The notes under the pieces are model-generated. The model was not told where the DNA came from. It did no database searches and saw only the letters and a program-made list of their open reading frames with translations. 64,000 nucleotides of DNA from an uncultured Alphaproteobacteria bacterium (GTDB lineage: Bacteria > Pseudomonadota > Alphaproteobacteria > HIMB59). Location of the stretch: the NCBI GenBank assembly GCA_902574995.1, contig CACGPP010000002.1, forward strand, positions 1-64,000, written 5' to 3'. The translations under genes and the position numbers were made by a program. Shown here in pieces: positions 14,596 to 19,968 of the stretch (its first letter is position 1; each line of letters opens with the position of its first letter).

Positions 14596-14880
14596 TTAGT
14601 CAAGCTTTAATAAGGTCTCTCCATTTTCAGGTTGAGAAGATTGTTTTGAGAGTTCATCTAAAAAATCATCTTTTTCATAATACAAAGATTTCAAATCCAT
14701 ATCGACAGCTAATGACTTTTGCTTCAAGTTATAATGAAAGTCTTGAAACAATTTTAATTCAAACTTATTTATAAGATAATTTTGTATATTATATCTTCCA
14801 TTAAAAGTATGGTAGGTGAGATAAAAGAGAATAAAAATAAAAAATATATTTATCAATATTTTAGCACTAAAAAACTTCAT
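14596..14880 (-). CDS. FtsB/DivIC-like small membrane protein
   Basis: A 94-residue bitopic protein with an N-terminal membrane segment (residues about 8-24), followed by YHTFNGRYNIQNYL and a helical periplasmic stretch ending in EKDDFLDELSKQ. The order of membrane helix, YHxxxGxxxL, coiled coil and a terminal D/E-rich piece is that of alphaproteobacterial FtsB (septum-formation initiator), which acts with FtsL and FtsQ at the division site. The length fits the family. The usual alphaproteobacterial context between eno and pdhA is absent, which lowers confidence. It could instead be an unrelated single-pass protein. Confidence 0.45.
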   Translation of the reverse strand: MKFFSAKILINIFFIFILFYLTYHTFNGRYNIQNYLINKFELKLFQDFHYNLKQKSLAVDMDLKSLYYEKDDFLDELSKQSSQPENGETLLKLD

Positions 14881-14995
14881 AACTTTCCTCTAAATAAATT
14901 TAACATTGCTGTTTAATAGCAAGACAGTTAATAAGAATTAATATGTTAATTAAATGTGAATAAGTTTTTTTGGCTAGTGAATAGGCAGTTTAAAA

Positions 14996-15532
14996 CTAGG
15001 ATATTGCACAGAGTGTATGAGCTTCATGAATTTTTTCTTGAAAATTTTCAAAACTCCAACTTTCTTTGGGAATATCAAAATACTTTGCATACTCTTTTTG
15101 AATAGTCATAGTCATTAAATTGCCTTTTAACATATCTTGGTTCATTTTGATGAACTCTTTTGAAAGTGGGATATTCTGAGCTACATAAATACCTGCAATC
15201 TCGCCTAATCTGAATGGTGATGTAAAAGCAACACTAGCTAATATCTCTTGGCCACCAAAATTTAAATAAATTTGTTGATCTTCAAAGATTTGATTTAAAG
15301 GTGATGGGTTATCCTGCATAGTGTAAATGAAGAAAAAAACATTAAACCTGCAACCATTATCCTTATCAAAATTAAAGTGGATGTTATTTCCATGTTGGAT
15401 TTCGCCATTTTTTTTTAAAGTGATGAAATTTTCACCTTGATCAATTTGCCATGGGTCAGCTAAGGCAAAAGTTGGTGTCAGCCAAATTAAGAAGAATATA
15501 AAGTATTTTAAAATCACGTTTGAATAGTGCAT
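14996..15532 (-). CDS. exported protein, 178 aa, two-cysteine type
   Basis: The protein begins MHYSNVILKYFIFFLIWL with a clear signal peptide (cleavage likely after FALA) and is then a beta-rich periplasmic domain. A cysteine in NGCRF and a second near the C-terminus in AHTLCAIS may form a disulfide. I choose the ATG at 15532, which overlaps the upstream stop as TGATG; a TTG at 15541 would add three residues. The pattern (Trp soon after the signal, NxCxx, C-terminal AHxxC) resembles the exported products at 16331 and 19441, and distantly the IalB-type periplasmic proteins of alphaproteobacteria. Function unknown. Confidence 0.6.
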   Translation of the reverse strand: MHYSNVILKYFIFFLIWLTPTFALADPWQIDQGENFITLKKNGEIQHGNNIHFNFDKDNGCRFNVFFFIYTMQDNPSPLNQIFEDQQIYLNFGGQEILASVAFTSPFRLGEIAGIYVAQNIPLSKEFIKMNQDMLKGNLMTMTIQKEYAKYFDIPKESWSFENFQEKIHEAHTLCAIS

Positions 15533-15945
15533 CAGTCCCAAAGTATTCCTAGTAAGACTTTAAGATCCTGCTGATGACATTTAGGACAGCACAGATCTGG
15601 GATAGTTTCATTGTCACTATCCTCTGGCATATATTCTCTCTCCTTTTGACATGACCTACAATAAGACTCTGTTTGAAATATGAGATCTCCTTGTTGGTTG
15701 TACAATGTAAGGTGACACTTATTTTCTAATGAGTGGCATTTACTACACTGATAAAGAGAGTAACCTCGTGAATAATGGGTATGAATTTGTTTTCGGTGCT
15801 TTAGTAGTTGTACTGTTTTTTTGTCATTGCCTCTAAGTGCATGGAGTATGTCATCAATATTTCCAAATAAAAAGCCAACTCCCATTGTGATCTCTTCAGA
15901 TTTGTAATGACATTTTTGACATTCAATAAAATAGCTATGACCCAT
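15532..15945 (-). CDS. double zinc-ribbon protein
   Basis: A 137-residue cytoplasmic protein with four zinc knuckles: CQKC near the N-terminus, CSKC in the middle, then CRSC and CCPKC near the C-terminus, enough ligands for two zinc ribbons. The frame is open to 16062, but its first 39 codons would be read from a tRNA-like sequence and a spacer, so I use the ATG at 15945 (MGHSYFIECQKCHYK), where the metal-binding domain begins. A TATAAT lies about 10 bases upstream, which would suit a nearly leaderless transcript. It is coupled to the exported-protein gene downstream (TGATG). Nucleic-acid or protein binding is likely; no family assigned. Confidence 0.55.
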   Translation of the reverse strand: MGHSYFIECQKCHYKSEEITMGVGFLFGNIDDILHALRGNDKKTVQLLKHRKQIHTHYSRGYSLYQCSKCHSLENKCHLTLYNQQGDLIFQTESYCRSCQKEREYMPEDSDNETIPDLCCPKCHQQDLKVLLGILWD

Positions 15946-16106: not shown

Positions 16107-16334
16107 TTATTTCCCATATTTAGGAACTACCGGAGGCTCGGGCTCCTCTAGCAATGTACATTGCTCTTTGTTAGCAGGTAATTCATCAAAAGGGCGTGTT
16201 ACCCAAATGTGTGAAAAAATAATATCCCCGTTTTCATTTTGAAAGCACTTCTTACCAAAATGAAGTTGACTGTGATTTTGCTCATCTGCAACATACAAGA
16301 ATATAACTGCAGCTAAAAAATGTAAAAAAGTCAT
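16107..16334 (-). CDS. small exported protein, 75 aa
   Basis: The N-terminus MTFLHFLAAVIFLYVADEQ looks like a short signal peptide or membrane anchor. The remainder is polar, contains two cysteines (GKKC and EQC) and ends in a proline-rich EEPEPPVVPKYGK. It overlaps the end of the 16331 gene by four bases (ATGA), which indicates coupled translation with that exported protein. No family recognised. Confidence 0.5.
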   Translation of the reverse strand: MTFLHFLAAVIFLYVADEQNHSQLHFGKKCFQNENGDIIFSHIWVTRPFDELPANKEQCTLLEEPEPPVVPKYGK

Positions 16335-16933
16335 GTTTTTAGTCCTTTCTGAGAATTGTTTAGACTGGCCGAGATGGGATCAGGTATTTTTTTGCAGTGC
16401 CTATGCGCTCTGTCCATCGCCTCCTCTACTTGAGGCATGGCCCACTGAATTGTAGGCAGGTCTATGAAAGTTCTTAAGGCTACTGGTTCCTCGAATGGGA
16501 CATCAGTGACTGTTAAGCGAGAGCGTTTATGAAAAGTATAATATTCTTTAATTGTTTCATGATTGTATGAACCCATCCCAATTAAAATCATGTGTCCGTT
16601 TTTATATGGATATATTTCATGCACCATTCCGGTGGTTGAATGACCATTTTCCTGAAGCTCAATTTCTTTATCTAATAATTTTGTGAGATCAGGGTGAACT
16701 GATAAGGTAAATAATTCAAAGAATTGAAGCACACGATCACAATTATTTTTTGTCATAACAAAAATAATATTTTCTGAGTCTTCAACATCACCACTACGTT
16801 CAATTGCAATCATTTCCTCTTCCAATAATTGAATATTCCAACCATGAAATTTTTCTAAAGTCATCGCTGAGCTTAAGGAGTATAAAAAGAGAGTGATAAT
16901 TATTAATATTAAGTTTTTTCCTCTTTGTACCAC
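16331..16933 (-). CDS. exported protein, 200 aa, two-cysteine type
   Basis: The open frame extends upstream to 17116, but the added 61 codons are basic and serine-rich with no protein-like pattern. I use the GTG at 16933, which gives VVQRGKNLILIIITLFLYS, a good signal peptide, followed by MTLEKFHGWNIQLL. An ATG at 16864 would lose the signal peptide. The mature part has one cysteine in KNNCDR and another near the C-terminus in AHRHCKKI, the same layout as in the products at 14996 and 19441. It is coupled to the 75-residue gene. Probably periplasmic; function unknown. Confidence 0.5.
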   Translation of the reverse strand: MVQRGKNLILIIITLFLYSLSSAMTLEKFHGWNIQLLEEEMIAIERSGDVEDSENIIFVMTKNNCDRVLQFFELFTLSVHPDLTKLLDKEIELQENGHSTTGMVHEIYPYKNGHMILIGMGSYNHETIKEYYTFHKRSRLTVTDVPFEEPVALRTFIDLPTIQWAMPQVEEAMDRAHRHCKKIPDPISASLNNSQKGLKT

Positions 16934-16969
16934 GGCTAATTTACAGGAGGATGGGATTAGCCTTAGCCG
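16933..16969 (-). promoter_or_regulatory. leader hairpin with alternative pairing
   Basis: CGGCTAA (16933-16939) and TTAGCCG (16963-16969) form a 7-bp stem, and a second TTAGCC (16957-16962) could compete for the same arm. The structure touches the GTG chosen as start of the minus-strand exported-protein gene, so it might affect translation. The rest of the gap up to 17162 holds nothing else I can name. Confidence 0.25.
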
Positions 16970-17162
16970 CAGCACAGAAAGGAACAATGAAAAAACCACC
17001 TCAATTTTTCCTCTCTCTTTTTTTTGTTTGTCATTTATTAACCTGGTAGGAAATGACTTAGAGAAGGAGTAACTAGAAAACAGAAAGGAAGAGAGAGGTC
17101 TTTGCACTGAAGACAAAAATATTAAATTTTAAAAGTAAAGATTGGGAAAAGTTTATGAAATT

Positions 17163-18548
17163 TTAGACAGTTATACCATTGTTAAGAATATTCCAATTAT
17201 TCTTAATAGCCCATCCAAAGATGGCCATAAATAGAAAATAGCTCAGACATAGAGACCAAAATAATTTTTTATCAATTGTATTATAGCGACCCGTTTGATG
17301 ATCACGATGGTAATCCCAGTAACTCCAAATTGTTATAATAGTAGAAAGACCTGTGAACAAATAAGATATCAAAATCCAAGCATCTAAAATACTGATTTTA
17401 TTGATTTTTGGAAGTCCATCACCAAATGTAAATTGAAATACCACGAGGGTCAGCAAAGAGCCCAGTGAAACTGCTAGCTTAGACTCAAGTTCACGGGCTG
17501 GTATCCAAAATACACTAAACGATAGATAAACTAAAAAGATAACTGGTAGAATTATTTTCAAAATATAGTAGAAGGATTTTCTTGTAAGCTCAAAGTTGAA
17601 ATGAACCTCTTGTTGCACACCCTGACCGTAAATTTTTGTAGGACAGCAATCAAAATCATGATGTGTTATTTGCCACTCGTAAAGATTTTCGTTGGCCCTG
17701 TCAATCACAAATTCAGGATTATATAATGCAGATGTACTCAGATCAGTGTCTTGGAAAACAAAGCCTGCTGATGTTGCTATTCTATCGAATGGAAATTTTT
17801 GAAATTCTGAAATATTATTTGCCTGGTAATTTATTTTTTGAACTAAATGAAAATTGTAAGGTTTGTTACTTGTTACTAATAAGCTATGAAACTCGGATCG
17901 ATAAATAAATGAAGTAATATCTGATGCATCGAAATTAGGATACCATATTTTTTGGAGAATATTTTCTAATTCAGCAGATTTTCTAAAAATACATTTTATT
18001 TCAGAGTCTTCATTTTCAGCAAACTTGGCTTTATCTAAACCTAATATTAGGGGTAGTTTATGAATTAAATCTTCATTTCTCCACTTTAGATGTACTTCAA
18101 AATCTAAACTAGTTTTACTACTTTGTTGAATAATCTCTATGTCTCTCAAGATAATATCAAATTCAACAATAGGGTGTCCCAAATACGGGGTTCTCTCTAA
18201 ACTAATTGTTTTAGCTTCACCGTCAGATCCAATTACTTTTAACGAAACATTCCTAGTAGCTAAAAATTTCTTTACATTATCTTCTTCAATATTAGATATA
18301 TCCTCCCCATTAATTTCAATAATCTGATCTCCTGTAGATATAGAAGACTCAAAGGCAGAGGAGCCAAAGCGTATTTTGTCAATAAAAGAGCCATTTTCCT
18401 CCAAAACTACACCTACATCATTGTAGGCCAGACGTATATTAGACGTTTCCCTGAAGTCTTTTTTTAGAAGTCGCTCACAAATTTCTGCTCCCCAGCTAAC
18501 ACTGGAAAAGAAAACCCAAAATCCTAAAATTATCCCCCTTAAAAACAA
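17163..18548 (-). CDS. pentameric ligand-gated ion channel with N-terminal PDZ-like domain
   Basis: A 461-residue membrane protein. A signal peptide (1-21) is followed by a PDZ-like domain at about 37-122, with SAFESSISTGDQIIEINGEDI matching the carboxylate-loop and helix region of bacterial PDZ domains. Next is a Cys-loop-receptor-type ligand-binding domain (about 125-323) with FPFD of the Pro-loop at 252-255. Four membrane helices follow: M1 (324-350, with the ILP proline), the pore-lining M2 (356-379, SKLAVSLGSLLTLVVFQFTF, then GLPKI), M3 (383-413) and M4 (428-448). Prokaryotic homologues such as GLIC and ELIC are channels opened by protons or small amines. The loop lacks the animal disulfide, as in other bacterial members. 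A PDZ domain on a channel is unusual. One base separates it from the upstream HTH gene. Confidence 0.85.
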   Translation of the reverse strand: MFLRGIILGFWVFFSSVSWGAEICERLLKKDFRETSNIRLAYNDVGVVLEENGSFIDKIRFGSSAFESSISTGDQIIEINGEDISNIEEDNVKKFLATRNVSLKVIGSDGEAKTISLERTPYLGHPIVEFDIILRDIEIIQQSSKTSLDFEVHLKWRNEDLIHKLPLILGLDKAKFAENEDSEIKCIFRKSAELENILQKIWYPNFDASDITSFIYRSEFHSLLVTSNKPYNFHLVQKINYQANNISEFQKFPFDRIATSAGFVFQDTDLSTSALYNPEFVIDRANENLYEWQITHHDFDCCPTKIYGQGVQQEVHFNFELTRKSFYYILKIILPVIFLVYLSFSVFWIPARELESKLAVSLGSLLTLVVFQFTFGDGLPKINKISILDAWILISYLFTGLSTIITIWSYWDYHRDHQTGRYNTIDKKLFWSLCLSYFLFMAIFGWAIKNNWNILNNGITV

Positions 18549-18549
18549 A

Positions 18550-19014
18550 TTAAAGTGATTTTAACACACTCTTAATTTTACTCAACTGATCATCTAATTT
18601 TTGGATGTCTTGGTAAATTTTCTCTTTTTCATGTGGGACTATTTTTGATCCCCCTGAACTTTTCTCATCCATTGACTCACGTACAGCATCCATTAAATCT
18701 CCCAATCTTCCGCCTATTGCTAATATCTCTGATTGTACTTCACTCTCACTAGCAGGTTTTCCGGGTTGTGCGGTTGCTAGATAATCTTTCAAAAAATTGC
18801 TAAAGGGAGTTTTTTGGTAAATTTTATGCATAGCATGCTCTAACCGTATGACAGTTCTAAATTGTATATTCCTATCAATATCGTCAGGGTCAGCACATTT
18901 GTATATATAAGACTTAGACTTACCGGTGATATCTTGAATGTCTTGATCACTTAAATTTTTAAGAACTTCTTTTAGGGTATGTTCAATGGTGATAATTTCT
19001 TTTGTTTTAGACAT
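18550..19014 (-). CDS. HTH protein, phage-CII/XRE-like
   Basis: A 154-residue soluble protein. The N-terminal third contains a helix-turn-helix-like segment (LSDQDIQDITGKSKSYIYKCADPDD, about residues 21-45). The C-terminal half has two amphipathic helices separated by a GSK-rich linker, suited to oligomerisation. The layout resembles phage CII-like regulators of alphaproteobacteria. It lies one base upstream of the PDZ-channel gene, the closest possible operon spacing, and may regulate it. It is divergent from another HTH gene at 19121. DNA binding is inferred. Confidence 0.55.
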   Translation of the reverse strand: MSKTKEIITIEHTLKEVLKNLSDQDIQDITGKSKSYIYKCADPDDIDRNIQFRTVIRLEHAMHKIYQKTPFSNFLKDYLATAQPGKPASESEVQSEILAIGGRLGDLMDAVRESMDEKSSGGSKIVPHEKEKIYQDIQKLDDQLSKIKSVLKSL

Positions 19015-19120
19015 TCCTTACTATAGCAATTTATGTTAAGCGGGTAATCAATAATCTATGTCCAAAAGTAAAAAAGCTTTGGACTATTTGTAGAAATAAT
19101 AATTCCTCATTATTGTTATC

Positions 19121-19441
19121 ATGAAGTCTAATTATACTACTCCTACTTTAGGTAGAAGGTTATCCCCTAATAAAAAAAATGAACCACAATCCTTAAGAGA
19201 TATTGAAGAGTATTTGCGTTGTTTAGCACAAATCAGACGAGAAAATAATATTTCAGTTGAGGATGTGATGCAGCATTTGAATTATTCTCGTAGCACTCTT
19301 GATGCTCTTGAGAATGGCAATCTAAAATTTATTCAGTATCCCTTAAATTACTTTTTTACTAGGCAATATGCCTCTTATCTCAAAGTGCCCTTTCCTCAGC
19401 AATTTTTAATGAGCCATTTCAAACCAGGAGAAAAAAAGTAA
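19121..19441 (+). CDS. RodZ-type HTH_25 protein, cytoplasmic only
   Basis: A 106-residue protein whose residues about 33-96 match the N-terminal helix-turn-helix domain of RodZ: IRRENNISVEDVMQHLNYSR, STLDALENGNLKFI and the trailing FFTRQYASYLKVP. Unlike RodZ it has no membrane segment or periplasmic domain, so it is a stand-alone HTH module and may bind DNA. Its stop codon overlaps the next start as TAATG, and the three genes 19121-20414 form a coupled operon. Confidence 0.6.
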   Translation: MKSNYTTPTLGRRLSPNKKNEPQSLRDIEEYLRCLAQIRRENNISVEDVMQHLNYSRSTLDALENGNLKFIQYPLNYFFTRQYASYLKVPFPQQFLMSHFKPGEKK

Positions 19442-19968
19442 TGAGAGCATTATTATTGTTATTTATCAGTGTTTTTTTAAGCAATTGTTCTTTGAAAGCA
19501 GAGAATAGTCCTATGCATCATGAATTTGATAATTGGATACACATGGAGGCCAAAGAAGAAAACTTGGACTTAGTCTTTAGTTTGGAAAACCAAGATCAAA
19601 TGATTATTTTTATTGTCGATCCAAACTTAAGTTGCGATGCTCGTTTAGTTTATACCAATCGAGAATTTGAGCCCAAAGATTTTGACGTTATGAGCGGTGA
19701 AACTTTTGATTGGAAGCTCTCAGGTCAATCTTATAAAGACGAAAATGCGAGCCGATTGAATGCCGATGGATACGTTCGGTGGGAGTTAATGAGTTTTTAT
19801 AAACACCACTTCTCCAAGCTGGAAGATCTGTTGTCCAAAAGAGGACAAATTTCATTTTCTATCAATGATCCTCTCAACAGATTTGAAAAACAAGAGATAG
19901 AAATGAAAGCTAACGGACTCAGTTCTGCTCTTAACAGCGCTTTGGATACGTGCCAGGGATGGACATGA
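19441..19968 (+). CDS. exported protein, possible lipoprotein, 175 aa
   Basis: The N-terminus MRALLLLFISVFLSNCSLKA is a signal peptide. LSNC could act as a weak lipobox, although Asn before the cysteine is unusual. The mature protein has a Trp soon after the signal (FDNWIHM), a cysteine in NLSCDARLVY and a C-terminal cysteine in ALDTCQGWT, the same arrangement seen in the exported products at 14996 and 16331. It overlaps both neighbours and is translated with them. Function unknown; envelope location is likely. Confidence 0.6.
   Translation: MRALLLLFISVFLSNCSLKAENSPMHHEFDNWIHMEAKEENLDLVFSLENQDQMIIFIVDPNLSCDARLVYTNREFEPKDFDVMSGETFDWKLSGQSYKDENASRLNADGYVRWELMSFYKHHFSKLEDLLSKRGQISFSINDPLNRFEKQEIEMKANGLSSALNSALDTCQGWT

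Follow-up and report, generated by a model that had tools for sequence, protein, structure and literature searches.

The locus raises two questions: whether a single bacterial gene joins a PDZ domain to a pentameric ligand-gated ion channel (pLGIC) and, if so, what such a channel would sense and to what it would report. The window, as we call the whole 64,000-nucleotide stretch of DNA that was analyzed, carries the gene on its minus strand, where the frame runs from 18548 to 17163 through 461 codons with zero internal stops; the plus strand across the same interval contains many. The original prediction had read a signal peptide, a PDZ-like domain and the parts of a pLGIC from one frame, without naming the strand, and that reading is confirmed by the following features.

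17163..18548, minus strand: PDZ-pLGIC channel gene, 461 aa with a TTG start (HMM matches and ~25 full-length homologues)
18486..18548, minus strand: predicted signal peptide, residues 1-21 (hydrophobic start, then A-E-I-C)
18180..18431, minus strand: PDZ domain, residues ~40-123, with D44-V-G46-V-V-L as the equivalent of the carboxylate loop (PF00595, AlphaFold and VIA)
17577..18170, minus strand: pLGIC ligand-binding domain, residues ~127-324, with the Pro-loop F252-P-F-D255 and pre-M1 R323 (invariant columns and TIGR00860)
17643..17648, minus strand: vicinal cysteines C301-C302 in the loop C region (25/25 type A channels; placed by alignment with nAChR)
17166..17576, minus strand: four-helix membrane domain, residues 325-461, with P335 in M1 and E355 at -2' of M2 by alignment with GLIC (PF02932 and low-confidence model helices)

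Homologues of the channel occur in 36 of the 162 genomes of the order, 31 of them within the source genus; two families in the order, small genomes and a GC content of 32.7% point to the marine HIMB59/AEGEAN-169 clade as the probable source (compare PMC10734472). An intact channel of 450-463 aa, at 51-98% identity, is encoded by ~25 genomes of that genus, all independent, in which the whole PDZ-plus-channel architecture is kept, and the copies found in named records belong to separate, independent assemblies of uncultured Alphaproteobacteria. Thus, the architecture and its conservation are directly established, and the gene is not an assembly join. At one genome's loci (G145; L026, L041 and L065), the frames of both the channel and its neighbor HTH1 are broken, through either decay or sequencing error. 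Outside the home order, no alignments to the PDZ part were obtained from thin samples of the class (385 genomes), the phylum (398) and the order of genome G555 (32). Viral contigs contained no homologues of the PDZ-channel, and a search of an anti-phage defense library gave no useful match.

Residues ~40-123 are, by profile and predicted structure, a PDZ domain with a PDZ fold. The Pfam model PF00595 matches residues 47-105 of the window copy significantly (E 8.2e-9; 36.2 bits against a cut-off of 23.2), with relatives matching PDZ models more weakly; the NCBIfam DegP and Prc models give weak matches to the same part, and a profile of the N-terminal part retrieved almost exclusively PDZ proteins from among PDB chains. 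AlphaFold modeling of residues 22-129 from 11 sequences returned a PDZ fold with a mean pLDDT of 79.6 (ca. 90 in the core), for which Foldseek and VIA ranked highest the PDZ domains of CtpA, CtpB, Prc and HtrA/DegS, with VIA Z values from 11.9 to 9, mostly over 73-85 residues (11.9 for CtpA, 11.7 for CtpB with peptide, 9.2 for DegS). Both the Pfam PDZ search and the comparison with DegS/DegP had been suggested alongside the original prediction, and both came out in its favor. Within the equivalent of the carboxylate-binding loop, D44 and G46 show no variation among the type A channels (25/25), and position 88, which corresponds to the class I helix position, is D or E rather than His in 22 of 25 sequences. 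In the predicted models, the linker that follows is very short, with the PDZ domain ending at ~123 and beta-1 of the ligand-binding domain starting at ~127. We do not claim a clear PDZ domain for the wider family (L103, L104, L105 and L108), where the matches are weak: PF00595 gives E 0.14 for L103, and profile comparison gives a P of 0.008 but a probability of 5%.

The channel part was similarly assigned. Pfam PF02932 (Neur_chan_memb), a further check proposed at the outset, scores above its cut-off over residues 332-432 (E 2.3e-9; 38.3 bits against 28.1), the NCBIfam LIC model TIGR00860 covers residues 196-433 with E 5.5e-19 at a score below its own curated cut-off, and PF02931 (Neur_chan_LBD) is below significance for the window copy and reaches 27.2 bits, against a cut-off of 26, for the relative L104. 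The best PDB sequence matches of the channel are pLGICs (nAChR, GLIC and the DeCLIC group; E ~1e-10). The full-length AlphaFold model, built from 14 sequences, is poor (pLDDT 52), and the orientation of the domains is not readable from it. The Pro-loop residues F252, P253, F254 and D255 are invariant (25/25), as are R323 before M1, P335 in M1 and both E353 and E355 in the type A channels; C24 and C186 likewise do not vary. The cysteine pair that forms the Pro-loop disulfide of animal-type Cys-loop receptors is absent around residues 245-262. Other prokaryotic members of the family have no such disulfide either. Because the alignment places a Glu at -2', as in GLIC, the channel is predicted to be, and probably is, cation-selective; presumably it assembles as a homo-oligomer, a pentamer.

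The genes around the channel form a module, whose features are as follows.

18550..19014, minus strand: HTH1, a putative DNA-binding regulator of 154 aa, one base before the channel (conserved neighbor, co-occurrence)
19020..19028, minus strand: extended -10-like element TGCTATAGT, 5 nt before the HTH1 ATG (function presumed from the intergenic alignment)
19060..19084, no strand assigned: candidate operator GTCCAAA-N11-TTTGGAC, a conserved inverted repeat between the two divergent HTH genes
19121..19441, plus strand: HTH2, a divergent HTH protein (PF13413, HTH_25) that co-occurs with the channel
19441..19968, plus strand: secreted protein of the divergent arm (conserved neighbor)
16925..17108, minus strand: structured RNA between the channel and the secreted-protein gene (fold z, compensated pairs, covariance model)
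16331..16933, minus strand: secreted protein, likely starting at the GTG at 16933 (conserved neighbor; start deduced from the alignment)

An HTH gene one base upstream, and its possible coupling to the channel, had been remarked on in the original prediction; the link is now supported more strongly, by co-occurrence and by the neighbors of related channels. A single base separates the end of HTH1 (18550) from the start of the channel (18548), and throughout the genus the genes keep the order HTH1-channel-secreted protein, with HTH2-secreted proteins running divergently from them. HTH1 and the channel are found together in 30 of 52 genus genomes (31 when G119, whose contig stops inside the channel, is counted), the channel occurs without HTH1 in one, and 20 have neither gene (Fisher p about 1e-12). 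Moreover, in family f2, HTH1 homologues lie immediately after pLGIC genes (L104 and L107) or divergent from one (L105). This linkage is observed directly, and constant company under changing gene order is strong evidence of a functional tie between HTH1 and the pLGIC. HTH1 has only weak matches to known families (PF06892, Phage_CP76: E 0.11 for the window protein), and its binding to DNA is accordingly putative; the L104 homologue scores above the cut-off of that model (30.4 bits against 26). In four f2 genomes, HTH1 homologues occur with no channel detected (L099, 7880-8344; L100, 5837-6511; L101, 4747-5226; L102, 6467-6949); L099 and L100 have another small neighboring gene in common, which may be a different partner. 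Immediately past the downstream end of the module, the DNA at 14596-15600 is highly variable between relatives, with differing small genes, and in some genomes this variable stretch holds a second locus, of HTH1, pLGIC and PrsW.

Two noncoding elements accompany these genes. The inverted repeat GTCCAAA-N11-TTTGGAC looks like a local operator, to which HTH1 or HTH2 may bind, and its form is conserved even at loci whose channel has no PDZ domain. The pattern AGTCYAAA-N9..14-TTTGGAC has exactly one match in each of 28 of the 52 genus genomes, 27 of them at the channel locus, compared with two matches for a reversed control pattern. A regulon extending beyond the channel locus was considered and rejected: the single extra site, in G157, lies between unrelated genes and is probably due to chance. 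The interval 16925-17108 is a new candidate structured RNA. Its fold is more stable than that of any of 200 shuffles (z -5.1), 12 pairs have changed on both sides (0 of 500 shuffles have as many), and sliding the partners lowers pairing from 96% to 49-59%. Of 162 genomes, 26 match a covariance model, each with a single copy that always lies at a type A channel locus, and PDZ-less loci have none; in the two type A genomes with no match (G122 and G143), the contigs stop in or just beside the gene. The RNA matches no family in Rfam, and a search for a tRNA in the conserved stretch downstream of the channel found none. It probably leads the secreted-protein gene, which would put the real start of that gene near 16933; the listed longer frame, to 17116, overlaps the RNA.

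Related channels have a further recurrent neighbor. Genes for PrsW intramembrane proteases adjoin or overlap pLGIC genes at L056 (9915-10739), L059 (1389-2204), L103 (5510-6163), L104 (5130-5798), L105 (9346-10128), L107 (7963-8628) and L108 (5564-6367); these loci span two orders, the home order and, through one genome (G555), another. The five PrsW proteins tested match the Pfam model with E 1e-25 to 1e-34. PrsW is rare in the order (20 copies in 19 of 162 genomes), and about eight copies lie near a pLGIC, a recurrence that also points to envelope signaling. No PrsW is encoded at the window locus, the one in the window genome being on another contig (L118), and we found no report of the pairing in the literature. 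The PrsW pairing is thus context, outside the window module.

Our preferred reading, to which we assign a probability of roughly 0.45, is that the gene encodes an envelope sensor: a cation-selective pLGIC that is tuned by its PDZ domain and coupled to a regulator encoded at the same locus. It is backed by the PDZ and channel HMMs, the Ctp/Deg-like fold, the invariant D44 and G46, the co-occurrence with HTH1 and the operator; cation selectivity, modulation by the PDZ domain and signaling to HTH1 are what we infer beyond these. The Pro-loop channel would sit in the inner membrane, with its Ctp/Deg-type PDZ domain in the periplasm, a few residues from the first strand of the ligand-binding domain. 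There, the PDZ domain would bind a C-terminal peptide or a partner protein and, once bound, would bias channel opening through beta-1, while the channel's own site in the ligand-binding domain would still bind a small ligand. Ion flux, or the conserved cytoplasmic M3-M4 loop, would then act together with HTH1, which would respond by regulating its own operon, within a module made up of HTH1, channel, cis-RNA and secreted protein on one side of the inverted-repeat operator and HTH2 and a secreted protein on the other. The N-terminal domain (NTD) of DeCLIC, which modulates gating, is a precedent for such an accessory domain (PMC12664993). A narrower version, in which C-terminal peptides from damaged or processed envelope proteins set the opening by binding to the PDZ domain, and the channel reports to a dedicated cytoplasmic regulator of its own operon, we consider unlikely; if true, it would be an electrical envelope-stress pathway in bacteria. 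The original prediction had offered, as speculation, opening by unfolded or proteolysed envelope proteins. The conserved D-x-G loop and the Ctp/Deg-like fold suggest that the PDZ domain may bind C-terminal peptides, and its divergence, its degeneracy or loss in paralogues and the E/D in place of the class I His seem to count against opening by them.

It is a real possibility that a small molecule, protons or ion depletion gates the channel at the canonical ligand-binding domain, the PDZ domain being a tether or assembly aid with no part in gating. In the known prokaryotic pLGICs GLIC, ELIC and DeCLIC, gating takes place at the ligand-binding domain or close to it. Consistent with this, the conserved vicinal cysteines of loop C suggest a specialized orthosteric site; within the set of Tasneem et al., a loop C cysteine dyad was limited to a subset of animal cation channels. 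Furthermore, the same HTH neighbor is kept by relatives that have no PDZ domain: G112 and G118 retain the HTH1-channel pair with a PDZ-less channel that is ~30% identical, and of the PDZ-less L063, L064 and L059, two have HTH1 directly upstream, which shows that the PDZ domain is not needed for the HTH link. However, with so short a linker between the PDZ domain and beta-1, a bound PDZ domain would probably affect the ligand-binding domain, as the envelope-sensor reading has it.

The channel gene passes between species in the form of alleles that have diverged deeply. When the window is compared with L035, L042, L037, L006 or L038, the flanks are ~90-100% identical in DNA, whereas the channel from about codon 45 to its stop falls to 46-76% identity, returning to 99-100% just past the stop. 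The exchanged segment, 17163-18410, is sharply bounded, within the gene at one end and directly past the stop codon at the other, and synonymous divergence within it is saturated. The window allele changes five times on the upstream tree and once on the downstream tree, showing that recombination moved it, on the upstream side at a minimum; in L019-L022, which are mosaics, the C-terminus differs. From this swapping, selection in marine bacteria seems to act on the channel itself.

We consider doubtful the idea that the PDZ domain is a non-binding spacer, the relic of an earlier fusion, which is drifting and which some paralogues have lost. It is indeed the most divergent, and fastest-changing, part of the ectodomain (39% identity between the two main alleles, compared with 62% for the ligand-binding domain and 84% for M1-M3), degenerate in the paralogue L056, absent from L063, L064 and L059 and undetectable in other family members. 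Yet within alleles it is under purifying selection (dN 0.006-0.046 versus dS 0.23-0.40), and dN so far below dS gives, on this measure, no indication of positive selection. The invariance of the D-x-G in all 25 carboxylate loops and the 36 bits of the window copy as a PDZ domain likewise argue against a relic.

A ligand closer to hand would be the channel's own periplasmic C-terminus, which the PDZ domain might clasp within or between channels. The tail, on the correct side of the membrane, ends in Phi-x-V in 21 of 25 channels (ITV in the window) and fits a class II PDZ-ligand pattern, with Val at P0 and Ile, Val or Leu at P-2 in 21 of 21 and a variable P-1. Nevertheless, the last codon and stop always read GTC-TAA-A, even though GTC makes up 12% of Val codons, and the same GTCTAAA nucleotides recur in another frame at L063; the constraint is thus at least partly at the level of DNA or RNA, and we demoted the motif as a PDZ ligand. 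In addition, the four 450-aa chimeras have no such tail, and a PDZ domain atop the ligand-binding domain is probably too distant from a tail of ~13 residues, making this clasp very improbable. At the gene end (17161-17170, minus strand), GTCTAAA, kept as nucleotides across frames, resembles an operator half-site. Finally, a frameshift or assembly artefact fusing two genes, which the original prediction had named as a way to fail and which we looked for in related genomes, is already refuted by the ~25 full frames and has nothing found in its support, frames being broken only at one divergent locus (L026/L041).

As structural models for nerve receptors, bacterial pLGICs hold a central place. 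According to a 2016 inventory, a biological role is known for no microbial member (PMC4795631). The PDZ-pLGIC family offers a rare handle on what these channels do in bacteria, in a setting that can be tested: a constant regulator that has a candidate operator, together with a cis-RNA and a partner protein that is secreted, and with PrsW added at related loci; a PDZ input would be a new class of stimulus for pLGICs. As had been supposed, the fusion is apparently undescribed within the searchable literature: it is absent from a 2004 survey, the 2016 inventory and the DeCLIC paper, and full-text searches on pLGICs and PDZ domains, which covered neither subscription literature nor domain-architecture databases, returned only papers on animal receptors, model channels or unrelated matters.

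Compared with known systems, the window channel shares with GLIC and ELIC the Pro-loop FPFD, the pre-M1 Arg, the M1 Pro and the four-helix membrane domain, and with GLIC the Glu at -2' of M2, but adds an N-terminal PDZ domain, vicinal cysteines in loop C, a fixed HTH partner, an operator and an RNA. DeCLIC, a Desulfofustis pLGIC, also has an extra periplasmic domain ahead of the ligand-binding domain; that domain, however, comprises two jelly-roll lobes and about half of the receptor mass (PMC12664993), whereas the window channel has a single PDZ domain of ~80 residues. Other pLGICs have a sensor domain where the window channel has its PDZ domain, after the signal peptide and ahead of the ligand-binding domain, and L125 resembles the PBP-I type among them; their listed domains sense small molecules, and PDZ is not one of those listed. 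With nAChR alpha subunits, the channel has in common an adjacent loop C cysteine pair followed by Tyr (CCPTKIY in the window) and a cation-type channel, although it is bacterial and has no Cys-loop disulfide, and the likeness of the cysteine pairs may be convergent. The closest folds to residues 40-125 are the PDZ domains of CtpA/CtpB (S41) and DegS/DegP, at a sequence identity of ~12-25%; those domains recognize envelope peptides and regulate a protease, whereas here the PDZ domain is carried by an ion channel.
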